From Opitutaceae bacterium (lineage in GTDB: Bacteria; Verrucomicrobiota; Verrucomicrobiia; Opitutales; Opitutaceae), in the NCBI GenBank assembly GCA_030693515.1, contig JAUYAK010000049.1:1-64000 (forward strand): a stretch of DNA of 64,000 nt, given 5' to 3'. Made by a program: the position numbers and the translations under genes. The notes under the pieces are model-generated. The model searched no databases, was not told where the DNA came from, and saw only the letters and a list, made by a program, of their open reading frames with translations. Positions 725-26,814 of the stretch are shown here, in pieces; within the stretch, counting starts at the first letter, position 1, and every line of letters starts with the position of its first letter.

Positions 725-3131
725 GCAGGGAGTTCACAGGCATCAGCACTGCGGCGAGCAGCGGGTTCATGCGGCCCGCGACCGCCAGGCCGACGGCGGT
801 CAGGTTGTAGGTAATCGAAAAAACCAAAATCGCGCGCTGCGTGCGGCGGCGCACCGTGTCCACTTCGAAGAGGGCGCGGATGCCGCCGATGCCGCGCCCG
901 AGCCAGTAGAAATCCGCCTTCCCTTCGAGCACCCCGCGATGCACGACCGGCGTGCCACGGCACAGCGCACGGTCGAAGGCCAGGCTGTCGTTGGCTCCGT
1001 CGCCGAGCATCAGCGCGTCGTCGGCCGCGTGACGGCCCAACCAGTCCGCCTTGGCCTGCGGGGCCAAGCCACCACGGGCGTGATCCGCAGGCAGTCCAAT
1101 CTCACGGGCGAGCGCGCCGACCTTGCCGGCGTGATCACCGCTGAGGATAAATACCTCCAGTCCGCGGGCGCGCAGCGCACCGATCTCGTCGCGCGCATCG
1201 GCCCGAGCCGTGTCGGCCAGATCGAAGCGTGCCAGCACCCGGCCCGCCCACGCGAAGATCGTGCCGCCCTCGCCGGCTTCGCCCGCGCGCCAGCCAGCGC
1301 GGCCCAACGACCACGGGCCGCACTCCACCCCGTGGCCAACCGTCTCGCGCACATCGCCGGCGATCGCCGTTTCTGTCCCGTTCTCGCCGAGTAAATTTTC
1401 GAGTAGACACTGGCTGACGGGATGCAGGCTGTCGCGGACGAGCGTGAACAACGCCGCGCGCTCGGCCGGCGCAAGGGCACGCAGCGCCGCGGGATTGCGC
1501 AACACGGGCGTCTCGAGCGTGAGCGTGCCGGTCTTGTCGAAGACGATCTTCCGCACGCGCCCCAGCCGCGCCCACAGCCCGCCGTCGCGCACGAAGACCC
1601 CGCGCCGCCGCAGCGCCACCGTCGCGATCTCGTCGGCGAGGGGGAAGGCCAGGCCGATGGCGCACGGGCACGACACCACGAGCACCGCCGTCACGACCGC
1701 CCCCGCCCGCAACGCATCGCCCGTCGCCAACCACCAGCCGGCGCCGGCGAGCGCTGCGATCGCAAGGATGCCGATGAGATAGCCCTGCACGATCTGTTCG
1801 AGCAACCCGCGGCGATCGCGGGTGCGCTCAGCGGGCGCCAGCAGGCGCGCGAGCAGCGACTCAGCCCATGGTTGCAGGGCTTCAAGCCGACACGCGGCGC
1901 GGCCGAGATTCACCGCGCCTGCCGGCACGCGCTGGCCGTTGCGAAATACGCGGGGCTCCGCCTCGCCGTTGATCGAGGCGAACGAGAAGGCCGCTGCCTC
2001 GCCCGCCAGCCGCGCCTCCACTGGCAGCATTTGGCCGGCGGCGAGCACGAGTCTCTGGCCGGCGAGCACCTGCTCCGGCGGCACCGCCGTGCCGTCGTCG
2101 AGGAGCACCGGCGCGGGTCGCGGCTGGTGCGCGAGCAAGCGCCGCCGGTTGCGCTCCACCGCCGCCACCTGCGCCCAGCGACCGATGAGCATCAGCACGA
2201 TGAACGCGCTGACGAAGTCGAAATACACGAACCGCTCCTCGCCCGCGAGCCACCCGTAGAGCGAGCCGGCGTAGGCGCCCACGATCCCGATCGCAATCGG
2301 CTGGTCGATGTGCAGCGCGCCCTCGCGCGCGGCCTGCACCGCGCGGCCGATGAAATAGCCCCCGCCCACGAGCACACTCAGCGTCCCAAAACCCAACGCG
2401 AGCAGGCCGAACAGCCGCGCATATTCAAACGACGGCTCCATCCCGAAATAAGTCGGGAAAGCGAACAGCATCACGTTCAGCGCAAAGGCCGCGCAGAGCC
2501 CCAGCCGCTTCGCGAGGCCGCGGCTCTCGGGCTCCGCGTCTTGCCCGCCCGCCGGCCCCGTGAGATAGCCCAGCGCCTGAAGCCGCCGCGCAAACTCCGC
2601 GGCGGAAAATTCTCCAGGGCTCCAGCGCAGCCGCATCGTGCCATACTGCGCATTGACGACGATGTCGCGCGCCCCCTGCGCCTGCTGAAAAATCCGCTCA
2701 ATCAGCCACACGCAGCCCGCGCAGGAAATGCCCTGCAGACCGAGCGTGAGTTCCGGGACGTCGAGGTAGGGCCGGCTCTCCGAGCCGGCCTGGGTTGCAG
2801 AGCGATGCGCCGGCTGGAACCCAGGCTCGCCCGGAGAGCGAGCCCCACCCTCGGCCTCGCGCTGCGCGGCTTCGAGCCAGCCGTAATCGCGCGGCTGGAA
2901 AACCGCCGCATCGGCCGGTGCGGTCACCTCGTCCTTGAGTCGATAGTAGCCGGCGAGGCCGTGCTCGTGCACGAGTCGGAAAACGTAGCTGCAGCCCGCG
3001 CAGCAGAAACCCGTCTCGCGCATCCGGGCATCAATAAGGGCGGCGCCGCAATGGCGGCAGATAGGTCGGGGTTTATCCCCGACAGGTGTTGGGCATAAAG
3101 CCCGAGCTACAGGTTCGGCCATCGCACTCAT
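651..3131 (-). CDS. ccoI: CcoI/FixI-type copper-translocating P-type ATPase
   Basis: 826-residue P1B-type ATPase expected to supply copper for cbb3 oxidase assembly. In order it shows a cysteine-rich N-terminal metal-binding region (CRHCGAAL at ~25-32, then FCCAGC at ~42-47), a heavy-metal-associated domain (GISCAGC, ~132-138), transmembrane helices, the ion-path motif SCPCAIGLAFPLAD, the phosphorylation site DKTGTL, and the hinge GDGANDS. The start was taken at 3131, two bases before the upstream gene's stop; a second ATG at 3122 also fits. The longer frame upstream overlaps the exporter gene and was discarded. Two stretches, residues ~7-24 and ~95-123, are encoded by palindromic repeats inserted in frame (see separate entries). 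The 3' end overlaps the convergent Wzt-like gene by 74 bases. Confidence 0.93.
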   Translation of the reverse strand: MSAMAEPVARALCPTPVGDKPRPICRHCGAALIDARMRETGFCCAGCSYVFRLVHEHGLAGYYRLKDEVTAPADAAVFQPRDYGWLEAAQREAEGGARSPGEPGFQPAHRSATQAGSESRPYLDVPELTLGLQGISCAGCVWLIERIFQQAQGARDIVVNAQYGTMRLRWSPGEFSAAEFARRLQALGYLTGPAGGQDAEPESRGLAKRLGLCAAFALNVMLFAFPTYFGMEPSFEYARLFGLLALGFGTLSVLVGGGYFIGRAVQAAREGALHIDQPIAIGIVGAYAGSLYGWLAGEERFVYFDFVSAFIVLMLIGRWAQVAAVERNRRRLLAHQPRPAPVLLDDGTAVPPEQVLAGQRLVLAAGQMLPVEARLAGEAAAFSFASINGEAEPRVFRNGQRVPAGAVNLGRAACRLEALQPWAESLLARLLAPAERTRDRRGLLEQIVQGYLIGILAIAALAGAGWWLATGDALRAGAVVTAVLVVSCPCAIGLAFPLADEIATVALRRRGVFVRDGGLWARLGRVRKIVFDKTGTLTLETPVLRNPAALRALAPAERAALFTLVRDSLHPVSQCLLENLLGENGTETAIAGDVRETVGHGVECGPWSLGRAGWRAGEAGEGGTIFAWAGRVLARFDLADTARADARDEIGALRARGLEVFILSGDHAGKVGALAREIGLPADHARGGLAPQAKADWLGRHAADDALMLGDGANDSLAFDRALCRGTPVVHRGVLEGKADFYWLGRGIGGIRALFEVDTVRRRTQRAILVFSITYNLTAVGLAVAGRMNPLLAAVLMPVNSLLTLALVSWGMAGVFARREAGKDRA
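2766..2848. repeat. Palindromic repeat family A, copy 1, inside ccoI
   Basis: Outer arms read GTAGGGCCGGCTCTCCGAGC and, on the other side, GGAGAGCGAGCCCCAC, with inner TGGGTT/AACCCA arms. The same architecture recurs at 3981-4084 and 35669-35768. Read on the minus strand it encodes ccoI residues ~95-123, between the metal-binding N-terminus and the HMA domain, without breaking the frame. Confidence 0.85.
3062..3112. repeat. Two-stem palindromic repeat (family H) inside the ccoI N-terminus
   Basis: Two adjacent hairpins, GTCGGGGTTTATCCCCGAC and GGGCATAAAGCCC, bounded by AGGT and a GAGCTAC end. On the minus strand it encodes residues ~7-24 of CcoI (around LCPTPVGDKPRP), immediately before the first CxxC. 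The outer GTAGCTC edge matches the edge of another repeat at 42570-42617. Confidence 0.75.
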
Positions 3132-3132
3132 C

Positions 3133-3828
3133 TTAGAAACACACCCACGAAAACGGATCCGGTCCGCTGAAACCCAGCGTGCCGCGCAGCCGCCAGCCCA
3201 TGACGGCCGCCGTGCCGAGGGCGAGACTGAGCCGCGCGCGTTCGAGCCAGAGAGGTGAAAGCTTGCCCCGCACCCAATGGAACTGCGTTTGCGCGAGCCA
3301 CAGCAGCGGCACCGTGCCGAGGCCAAACGCCAGCATGAACTCCACGCCCCGCAGGGCCGAGCCCGACAGCGCCGCCAACGCGACGAGGAAATATAGCGGC
3401 CCGCAGGGCAGCAGCGGCGTCGCCAGCCCCATCACCGCCGCCGCGCCGAGGCGCGAGCCGCCGCGCGCCCGGCGTTGCACACGAAACCCGAGCCGCGCGA
3501 GCCAGAGCGGCTTGGGCAAAAACCGATCCCAGCGCAGCGCGAGCGCGACGAATACCACGACCATCGCCCACGGCAGCCAGCGCAGCACCGGGTGCGAAAA
3601 CCCAACGAGCGCAGCCCCGCCCAGCCCGCCGACGATCCCGCCGATGGTCGCGTAGGCCACCAGCCGCGCGCCGTGATAGGCCGAGCTGACCGCCTGCATC
3701 GAGACCGCGTCGCCGCGCACCGGCAGCAGCGAGCACGCGAGCGGACCGCACATGCCCGCGCAATGCAGGCTCGTGACCAAGCCGGCTACAAATGCGGTCG
3801 CGGGCGAATTGACGGCAGCGAGTTCCAT
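3133..3828 (-). CDS. SafE/TauE-like membrane exporter of the cbb3 operon (COG2836 type)
   Basis: 231-residue polytopic membrane protein. It begins with a helix carrying SLHCAGMCGPLACSLLP, the CxGMCGP signature of the SafE-like proteins that commonly sit in cbb3 oxidase operons. A second conserved helix has ATPLLPCGPLYF. About six membrane segments are visible. Family members are annotated as sulfite exporters, but the cysteine/methionine motif and operon position make copper handling for oxidase assembly plausible (inference). The start was placed at 3828, five bases after the upstream stop; the longer upstream frame lies over the neighbouring gene and is not membrane-like. The ccoI start follows directly. 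Confidence 0.85.
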   Translation of the reverse strand: MELAAVNSPATAFVAGLVTSLHCAGMCGPLACSLLPVRGDAVSMQAVSSAYHGARLVAYATIGGIVGGLGGAALVGFSHPVLRWLPWAMVVVFVALALRWDRFLPKPLWLARLGFRVQRRARGGSRLGAAAVMGLATPLLPCGPLYFLVALAALSGSALRGVEFMLAFGLGTVPLLWLAQTQFHWVRGKLSPLWLERARLSLALGTAAVMGWRLRGTLGFSGPDPFSWVCF

Positions 3829-3833
3829 GGGCG

Positions 3834-4115
3834 TCAGCGCGGACGCGCGGTAGCGAGCGGCACCTCGGCCACCCGGTGTTTCGAGGCAAAGGTGATCCAA
3901 GCGCCCCAGACGAGAACCTGCAGCACGCAGACCGCGGCGAACCACAGCCAAAGGCGCGAGGGTTTCGCCGGATTCGAACGGTGGGGCCCGCTCTCCGAGC
4001 GGGCCTGGGTTGCCGGATGGCTCGCGCGCCCGATCTGCCCATCACCCTGCCATTCAGGCTGGCTCAGAGAGCCGGCCCCACCCACGGAGTCGCAACGTTG
4101 GCGGGGAGTCTTCAT
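3834..4115 (-). CDS. Small single-pass membrane protein in the ccoH position
   Basis: 93 residues, starting in an ATGA overlap with the ccoG stop, so probably translationally coupled. Residues ~11-46 are encoded by a family A palindromic repeat and are probably not original sequence. What remains is a short basic N-terminus, one hydrophobic helix (LWLWFAAVCVLQVLVWGAWI, ~55-74) and a short tail. In proteobacteria the gene between ccoG and ccoI is ccoH, which also starts with a membrane helix, but ccoH products are longer (about 150 residues) and no other similarity is visible. Function unknown; a cbb3 assembly role is inferred from position only. Confidence 0.65.
   Translation of the reverse strand: MKTPRQRCDSVGGAGSLSQPEWQGDGQIGRASHPATQARSESGPHRSNPAKPSRLWLWFAAVCVLQVLVWGAWITFASKHRVAEVPLATARPR
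3981..4084. repeat. Palindromic repeat family A, copy 2, inside the small membrane protein gene
   Basis: Starts GTGGGGCCCGCTCTCCGAGC, continues GGGCCTGGGTT, and closes with GAGAGCCGGCCCCAC. It has the same arms as the copies at 2766-2848 and 35669-35768 but a different ~45-base centre. It is in frame and without stops in the minus-strand gene, encoding residues ~11-46. Confidence 0.85.
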
Positions 4116-5521
4116 CGTCCCGCCTCCTCCTCCCGCAGCAACCGCGCCTCGGGTCCGATAAATTCCACGGTGCGCTCCAGAAAAAACGTCCCGGCCTCGT
4201 CGCGCACACGCACCGCAAAGTCGAACGGACCCGTGTAGCCTGCCCGCGGCTGCTGCAGCACGAGCGGCTGCACAATTTCGCCGAGCGCGGGAATCTCAAG
4301 CGGCGCGTTGAAGCCATGCTGCACAAACCCGGCCGGCGCGCGGCGCAGCTCCACGACAAAGCGCTGCGGCGCGTTGCGCTTGTTCACGATGCGCAGGAGA
4401 AACTGGTTGCGGACATGATCCGCGCTCACGATGTAGGGCGCGCCGGTGATGCGCGTGACGCCCAGATTCGCGGGCCGCACCGTCGAAAGCGCCCACGTCG
4501 CGACCGCTGCTCCCACCGCCAGGAGCACCCCGTAGAGGATGGTGCGCGGCCGCAGCCACCGCGTCCGCTCGCCGATGAAGGCTTTTTGCGAGTCGTAGCG
4601 GATGAGGCCGAGCGGCCGGCGCACGCGCGTCATTACGTCGTCACAGGCGTCGATGCACGCCGTGCAGCCAATGCACTCCATCTGCAGGCCCTGCCGGATG
4701 TCGATGCCGGTGGGACAGACCTGCACGCACTTGTTGCAGGCGATGCAGTCGCCCTCGTCCGGCGGGCCGGTCTTGCCGCGCGGCTCGCCGCGCTTCGCAT
4801 CATACCCGATCACCAGCGAGTGATCGTCGATCAGCGCGGACTGGATGCGTCCGTAGGGGCAGACGACGATGCAGAGCTGCTCGCGGAACCACGCGAAGTT
4901 GAAATACAGGACGCCCGTGCCCGCAGCCATGAAGACAAACGCCCCCCAGTGCGCGCCGGGCGCCTCGCGCATCATCGCCCACACCTCCGGCAACGAAACG
5001 AAGTAGGCCAGGAAGAGGTGAGTGATGCCGGCGGCCGCCAGCAGGTAGAGACCGTGCTTGAGCGCGCGCTTGAAAATCTTCCCGGCATCGAGCGGCGCGG
5101 CGTCGAGCGCCCGGCGCTGCACCGCATCGCCCTCAATCAGGCGCTCGATGCGGCGGAAGACATGATCGAGAAACACCGAGTGCGGGCAGGCCCACCCGCA
5201 CCAGACGCGACCCAGCAGCGCCGTCACAAAGAACAGCGAAAACCCCAGCCCCGTGATGAGGAAGAACAGCAGCCACAAGTCCTGCGCCGCGAGCGTGAGC
5301 CCGAAGAGATGGAAACGCCGGTGCGCCACATCGAGGAACACCGCCGGATGGCCGCCGATCTTGATCCACGGCAGCGCGAGGTAGAAGAGGATCAACCCAT
5401 AGGCCGTCCAGCGGCGCACGCGGGTGAAGCGGCCGCGGGTGTCGGCCGGATGCAGGAACGGCCGCGAGCCATCGGCGCGGATGGTCGTGACCGAATCACG
5501 ATTGGGCAGCGGTGACACCAC
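4112..5521 (-). CDS. ccoG: Cytochrome c oxidase accessory protein CcoG (FixG/RdxA)
   Basis: 469-residue membrane iron-sulfur protein; the family acts in copper reduction and delivery during cbb3 oxidase maturation. Visible parts are an N-terminal membrane helix, the FixG core GRVWCGWACPHSVFLDHVFR, more membrane helices, a cluster-binding region with CIACNKCVQVCPTGIDIRQG and CIGCTACIDACDDVM, a further helix, and a C-terminal immunoglobulin-like FixG domain. Translation starts at a GTG at 5521, nine bases after ccoP. The 3' end overlaps the next gene in an ATGA. Confidence 0.95.
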   Translation of the reverse strand: MVSPLPNRDSVTTIRADGSRPFLHPADTRGRFTRVRRWTAYGLILFYLALPWIKIGGHPAVFLDVAHRRFHLFGLTLAAQDLWLLFFLITGLGFSLFFVTALLGRVWCGWACPHSVFLDHVFRRIERLIEGDAVQRRALDAAPLDAGKIFKRALKHGLYLLAAAGITHLFLAYFVSLPEVWAMMREAPGAHWGAFVFMAAGTGVLYFNFAWFREQLCIVVCPYGRIQSALIDDHSLVIGYDAKRGEPRGKTGPPDEGDCIACNKCVQVCPTGIDIRQGLQMECIGCTACIDACDDVMTRVRRPLGLIRYDSQKAFIGERTRWLRPRTILYGVLLAVGAAVATWALSTVRPANLGVTRITGAPYIVSADHVRNQFLLRIVNKRNAPQRFVVELRRAPAGFVQHGFNAPLEIPALGEIVQPLVLQQPRAGYTGPFDFAVRVRDEAGTFFLERTVEFIGPEARLLREEEAGR

Positions 5522-26735: not shown

Positions 26736-26814
26736 GTAGGGCGGGTCTGTGACCCGCCCATTCGCGCGTTGAGTGTTCGAGGGCGGGTCGCAGACCCGCC
26801 CTACTGCACGCAAT
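26736..26814. repeat. Palindromic repeat family B, copy 1
   Basis: GTAGGGCGGGTCTGTGACCC forms the left arm and GGGTCGCAGACCCGCCCTAC the right, around a TTCGCGCGTTGAGTGTTCGA centre. The copy at 43649-43723 keeps both arms and most of the centre. Confidence 0.85.

Follow-up and report, generated by a model that had tools for sequence, protein, structure and literature searches.

The window analysed here, which spans 64000 bases from the start of a 99681-bp contig in a genome of 6.65 Mb (G000), carries a gene for a ccoI-like P-type ATPase, recognised from its translation and from Pfam matches above cut-off to E1-E2_ATPase, Hydrolase and ATPase-cat_bd (HMA falls under its cut-off), together with a small gene that we name from its position as the ccoH-position gene and for which a Pfam search returned no match. 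The closest named relatives of this CcoI belong to the Opitutaceae and other Verrucomicrobiota. Three palindromic elements lie within the two genes and a fourth is intergenic (Table 1). All four are found where the original prediction had placed them, with their ends now refined, and, as it had also claimed, A1 and H in the CcoI frame and A2 in that of the ccoH-position gene are open and free of stop codons. The 29 residues that it assigned to A1 are indeed encoded (GGARSPGEPGFQPAHRSATQAGSESRPYL), while the 18 given for H and the 36 given for A2 have to be amended to 17 (PVARALCPTPVGDKPRP) and 35, respectively. Within CcoI, A1 separates the N-terminal metal-binding domain (residues 25-75) from the HMA domain (132-189). 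No promoter-like site was found within positions 2600-4300, where terminator-like sites number 2 as compared to 1.5 in shuffled sequences.

Table 1. Genes and palindromic elements in the window.
Feature	Start	End	Strand	Size	Description
ccoI	651	3131	-	826 aa	ccoI-like P-type ATPase gene, host of A1 and H
A1	2765	2849	-	85 bp	Family A REPIN, in frame in ccoI
H	3063	3111	-		GTAG-tagged REP dimer, in frame near the CcoI N-terminus
ccoH-position gene	3834	4115	-	93 aa	Host of A2
A2	3980	4082	-	103 bp	Family A REPIN, in frame near the N-terminus of the ccoH-position gene
A3	35668	35769	.	102 bp	Family A REPIN, intergenic; strand unassigned

The family A element is built of two inverted REP units of ~32 nt, which read GGTGGGGC, hairpin, CCTGGGTT, and its anatomy is that of a REPIN. 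Its ends are mostly GGTGGGGC, with some GGTAGGG; at the fourth position (GGTx), the 116 ends of 58 pairs have G in 109 cases and A in 7. A covariance model of the REP unit, built on 18 units and used to search the genome at E values up to 1, identified at least 133 family A units in 74 clusters with scoring confined to the best 150 among 7527 first-look candidates, the last few of the units being weak. Both halves of A1, A2 and A3 were recovered in this genome-wide search with E values of 1.5e-10 to 2.4e-7; their units are among the 18 used for model building, so that their own scores, though not those of the other copies, are partly circular. The hairpin pairs covary amongst the 18 units, with 14 cells altered on both sides and none of 500 shuffles scoring as high, a figure that is not a probability since the copies are related. 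Folded as single strands, A1, A2, A3 and H give z-scores of -4.0, -2.2, -2.3 and -5.2, respectively, with 5 of 200 shuffles folding as well as A2 and 6 of 200 as well as A3.

The units are arranged with great regularity. All 59 pairs stand in the order + - (15 of the 74 clusters hold a single detected unit), the pairs span mostly 80-92 or 102-104 bp, and the spacers measure 20-23 or 38-40 nt in 55 of the 59, the other four being 16, 26, 28 and 202 nt. One pair spans 266 bp and was omitted from the frame and flank counts, which therefore use 58 of the 59 pairs. Used as the sole BLAST query, A1 returns 63 matches on both strands. Amongst the pairs examined there is no direct flank duplication of 2-8 bases, and flank matches occur only in inverted form, 16 of them of at least 2 bases. 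The mobility of family A had been proposed from the intergenic third copy; A3 does lie between genes, and the copies are dispersed over the 74 clusters. A BLAST search for family H revealed 4 genomic places, of which two lie inside genes as judged from translation and codon score, namely ccoI and an oxidoreductase-like gene (L120).

Across 57 genomes, searched with stricter filters, family A units number at least 122 in G000, at least 75 in G018, at least 24 in G003 and at least 10 in G025, and each of the other 53 genomes has 0-2 among the matches listed. Two weak matches come from genome G029, which we take to be Opitutus terrae. For 12 of the 71 G000 clusters, the corresponding G018 site also bears a family A element, and for a thirteenth it bears a half unit; this comparison used 36 G018 contexts. 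The G018 regions were picked from 63 of its at least 75 units, and two more regions were added later.

Orthologues allow the insertions to be examined directly. The CcoI search gave matches in 51 of the 57 genomes, the own genome and paralogues included, and the N-terminal alignment covers 21 of 30 CcoI loci, again including its own, the 9 omitted being those without the alignment motif. A1 is present in G000 and G018 (86% identical) and absent from 19 of the 21 aligned rows, and H is confined to G000, being absent from 20 of the 21; at the place of H, another GTAG REP dimer, likewise in frame, occurs in G018 and G016. Of the 20 loci in which the ccoH-position gene was located, its own included, the 19 others all lack A2. 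A family A unit at this place occurs in G000 only, and there is none in G018 or in the other ccoI loci searched. A1, H and A2 are thus, on the evidence of these alignments, insertions, and the original suggestion that N-terminal and linker positions had received inserted repeats rather than ancestral protein sequence agrees with orthologues that mostly lack them.

A model search of 55 CcoI loci also showed that the distant L153 (JACRKC010000005.1, 70% identical) has a family A REPIN with the same nucleotide position, frame and length as A1, a different spacer and 20 differences in 85 bases. Among 14 other 85-bp copies in G000, one is nearer to the L153 element than A1 is (18 differences). In a 38-row tree, from which L151, 3 duplicate rows and the loci whose frame was too short were omitted, neither L153 nor G000 plus G018 has a sister that carries the element, and at least two changes are forced by well supported branches. 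The alignment labelled A4 omits 8 of the 25 related loci (L155, L159, L166, L167 and L169-L172). The history of the A1 site may comprise either a twofold gain at one nucleotide or a single gain followed by losses. These data bear on the view that the segments are ancestral protein sequence, repetitive by chance, which could draw on the presence of A1 in G018 and on the element at the same nucleotide and in the same frame in L153. We consider this view very improbable, given the 19 of 21 rows without A1, the element-free sisters of both carrier lineages, with at least two changes forced, and the dispersal of the same DNA over 74 clusters; the orthologues rule it out for H and, apart from an old gain with several losses, for A1 also.

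Family A is mainly extragenic. A rule based on a codon model trained on the available sequence places 5 of 71 clusters within genes, one of which (L060) is a weak unit, as against 360 of 500 random window intervals of 85 bp and 389 of 500 of 32 bp, and the notion of a repeat family that spreads chiefly through genes, as put forward originally, is not supported. The weak clusters 47, 51 and 63 of the 74 were omitted to give the 71 counted. The rule misses the short ccoH-position gene and a unit near a signal peptide (L099), both of which we added by eye, the former from translation and orthologues and the latter from translation. Beyond ccoI, the hosts in G000 include a DinG-like helicase (L070), a DNA-methylase-like protein (L078) and an unnamed protein (L074), the gene names for the rule hits here and below being our own reading of the translations. 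In G018 the rule selects 5 of 42 entries, which lie in ccoI (L205), at the same site as L074 (L177), in a response regulator (L179), in a membrane protein (L207) and, in frame 1, in a 73-codon frame that we judge to be spurious (L209). A further 29 entries from G003, G025 and G018 yield 2, both from G003: a helicase (L253), whose frame is uncounted since the right-hand unit alone remains, and an HrpA-like gene (L259).

The intragenic copies appear to favour one reading frame. Of nine sites in G000, G018 and G003, seven are in frame 0, which reads GGT GGG, two (L099 and L259) are in frame 1 and none is in frame 2, with a binomial value of 0.011 relative to the stop-free frames of the G000 family A copies. 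The count involves judgement, in that the weak L060 (frame 0) and L209 (frame 1) were left out and the ccoH-position gene and L099 put in; the addition of L060 gives 8 of 10 (0.005), that of L209 gives 7 of 10 (0.026) and that of both gives 8 of 11 (0.012). A preferred frame is therefore likely, though thinly supported by so few sites.

Some of these places have a varied history. In the helicase linker, for which the search pattern matched 9 of 13 loci, family A is present in G000, as one unit in G003 and not at all in G018, and in the response-regulator linker G018 has family A, G003 and G017 have a different palindrome and G000 has no family A. Clean empty sites were not obtained for either insertion because the linkers are hypervariable. 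Such a distribution raises the question of whether insertion is site-directed, with linkers re-hit on account of a target and not through tolerance alone. The helicase linker would fit this, as would the use of the same nucleotide in L153 and in G000 and G018 with at least two changes forced, but the flanks of 116 ends show a weak purine preference beside the element and nothing more, and a single gain with losses could account for the shared nucleotide. We regard target choice of this kind as rather unlikely.

Comparison of A1 between G000 and G018 shows differences at 6 of 87 sites, as compared to 17.7% in the rest of ccoI. For synonymous sites pS is 0.042 in A1 and 0.44 in the remainder of the gene, and for nonsynonymous sites pN is 0.079 and 0.081; five of the six changed codons are nonsynonymous. 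Sliding ccoI windows are as low in all changes in 56 of 2128 cases, such that the A1 total alone is not extreme, and its synonymous share depends on one change in ~24 sites. As far as these few changes can tell, the peptide gives no sign of constraint. The scarcity of synonymous changes is, nonetheless, not predicted for an old neutral insert and in this respect counts against the explanation that we favour below. Pooled over nine full REPINs shared by the two genomes, 49 of 765 sites differ, against 587 of 5015 in the 300-bp flanks, and copy by copy four of the nine change less than both of their own flanks, four lie between them and one changes more than both. Slow change may thus be a trait of the family, though not of every copy.

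These observations also bear on the proposal that the elements are retained for a function of the peptide or of a DNA or RNA hairpin, for example in tuning the expression of a cbb3 assembly gene. It would account for the lower synonymous change of A1 relative to the rest of ccoI, for the REP dimers of two families that the ccoI N-terminus bears across three genomes and for family A in the ccoI linker of two separate lineages. Set against this are the predominance of nonsynonymous codons among those changed in A1, the behaviour of the pooled shared copies, which indicates that slow change is not special to ccoI, and the lack of the insert in most aligned orthologues; retention for function is, in our estimation, improbable.

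A structure model of CcoI, built on 18 rows, has a mean pLDDT of 68 and falls below 50 at residues 1-20, 97-123 and five other stretches, the first two of which lie near the H (residues 7-23) and A1 (95-123) segments. Low pLDDT is to be expected there because hardly any other row shares the segments: besides L153's copy, one other of the 18 (L151) has the A1 segment in place, and none has H. The model is therefore weak evidence for disorder of the inserted segments, which probably sit in flexible parts of the protein.

From the directly observed repeat anatomy, copy number, orientation, lineage-specific presence, positions between domains and scarcity in genes, we think it probable that A1, H and A2 are REP-dimer insertions that were mobilised by a RAYT-like enzyme and survived selection in tolerant parts of their proteins. 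Family A is a REPIN population, probably of GTAG-class REP dimers with a predominantly GTGG tag, and H would belong to a second GTAG-class family. A Y1/HUH transposase of the RAYT kind most likely produces the copies and inserts them in single-stranded form. Selection would mostly purge the copies that land in genes, leaving those that preserve the reading frame and occupy flexible N-termini or interdomain linkers; the more frequent frame among them would be GGT GGG GCn, which would be translated into a peptide rich in Gly, Ser, Pro and Arg. A1, A2 and H would be such survivors, tolerated by the protein rather than useful to it. They provide orthologue-based cases of REPINs turned coding sequence, and linkers that have been hit more than once make the choice between re-use by tolerance and choice of a target a testable one.

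In-frame REP inserts are a known kind of element and are already reported from this bacterial family (Di Nocera et al. 2013, PMC3733652). That account describes intragenic GTAG REPs as most abundant in Opitutus terrae, where more than half of the GTAG REP inserts encode 20-30 aa, and accepts the GTGG tag as the one found in most O. terrae GTAG-20 elements. Family A resembles these dimers in its presence within genes, and REP ends give rise to TAG stop codons both there and in a metG-like gene here. The host genes differ, however, and insertion is demonstrated here via orthologues. With the Pseudomonas REPINs (PMC3116915) family A shares inverted REP pairs, a preferred spacing and a mostly extragenic location, and differs in the small fraction that lies in frame in genes and in that no cognate RAYT emerged from the Y1_Tnp matches in the genome. 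The Rickettsia palindromic elements, which the original prediction took as the closest precedent, are similarly inserted in frame in unrelated genes (PMC10969869). Those of R. conorii are reported to end in CGTC (PMC3733652) and to be unusually frequent in genes, whereas family A ends in GTGG or GTAG and is mostly extragenic. The GTAG-class REP dimers, of which intragenic ones are published for O. terrae, are the closer precedent. As far as the literature searched extends, the family A REPIN that a distant relative has at the identical ccoI nucleotide, a preferred reading frame (at few sites) and the few synonymous changes in A1 are new.

The genome has 7 matches to Y1_Tnp. One RAYT (C42) lies ~100 bp from a REPIN, but its role as the mobiliser of family A is unsupported, as it has no match in G018, which has at least 75 units; another (C6) has family A REPINs on both flanks and a reading interrupted by a stop. 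A further match lies outside the window, inside an alaS reading frame of 1127 codons with no stop, and is partial (positions 6-84 of 121, 29.9 bits against a cut-off of 23). AlaS orthologues align up to residue ~420 and again from ~600-619, and in 20 aligned rows no residue between 412 and 621 is invariant. An AlaS search matched 36 of 38 genomes; besides the own genome, 34 match parts of AlaS and G005 the transposase part only, none of the matches listed runs through the insert, and the 5 matches in the own genome include no second alaS. The linker measures 17-76 aa in the 15 relatives caught by a pattern applied to 29 loci. The insert may be an assembly error. If real, it would be a case of an essential enzyme that carries a whole transposase domain, and the in-frame presence of a REP-type transposase within the one alaS detected would be new as far as the literature searched reaches: no such case was met there, judged by titles and the beginnings of abstracts and with most subscription journals outside its scope. 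Unexpectedly long transposases are, in PMC6006769, ascribed to gene fusions or annotation errors and discarded.

A broader reading, which we hold tentatively and consider somewhat unlikely, is that the REP elements of this clade are in part gene-resident, recolonising the same linkers in a preferred frame, with a transposase and its terminal hairpins translated inside the essential alaS as a further instance. The linkers recolonised would be that of ccoI (family A, in two lineages), the ccoI N-terminus (two families) and those of the helicase and the response regulator. The alaS insert has two hairpins at either end, and three further places hold these ends as ~112-bp dimers; the two places that were inspected both lie outside genes by codon score.

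The alaS gene of the source genome, the sole copy found, has a transposase of the REP type (Y1_Tnp) inserted within its reading frame, and hairpins lie at the ends of the insert; the insert is absent from all of the relatives' matches among those listed. On another contig, a transposase gene with a family A REPIN on either side has a reading frame broken by a stop codon.

Besides families A and H, six more REP groups were recognised by eye in 0.61 Mb of the genome's own sequence. One long protein gene contains both an in-frame dimer of another REP family and a lone family A unit, the latter near the signal peptide, and a gene that reads like metG takes its stop codon, TAG, from a family A unit (GGTAGGG). 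In two relatives (G003 and G017) the response-regulator linker contains a palindrome of the form TTGTCATCCATTArATGACAA.

Coordinates of the features (G000, source genome; C, its contigs; L, fetched loci with their own numbering)
Feature	Position	Remark
alaS with transposase	G000:C44:24304-27597 (= L116:2624-5917)	outside window
Transposase gene between REPINs	L052:4001-4667 (= G000:C6:53059-53725)	
GTAG REP dimer, neither A nor H	window 26736-26804	GTAGGGCGGGTCTGTGACCCGCCC
Other-family REP dimer	L099:2466-2528	
Single family A unit	L099:4001-4032	
Family A unit with TAG	L079:1823-1907	
Linker palindrome	L225 and L227
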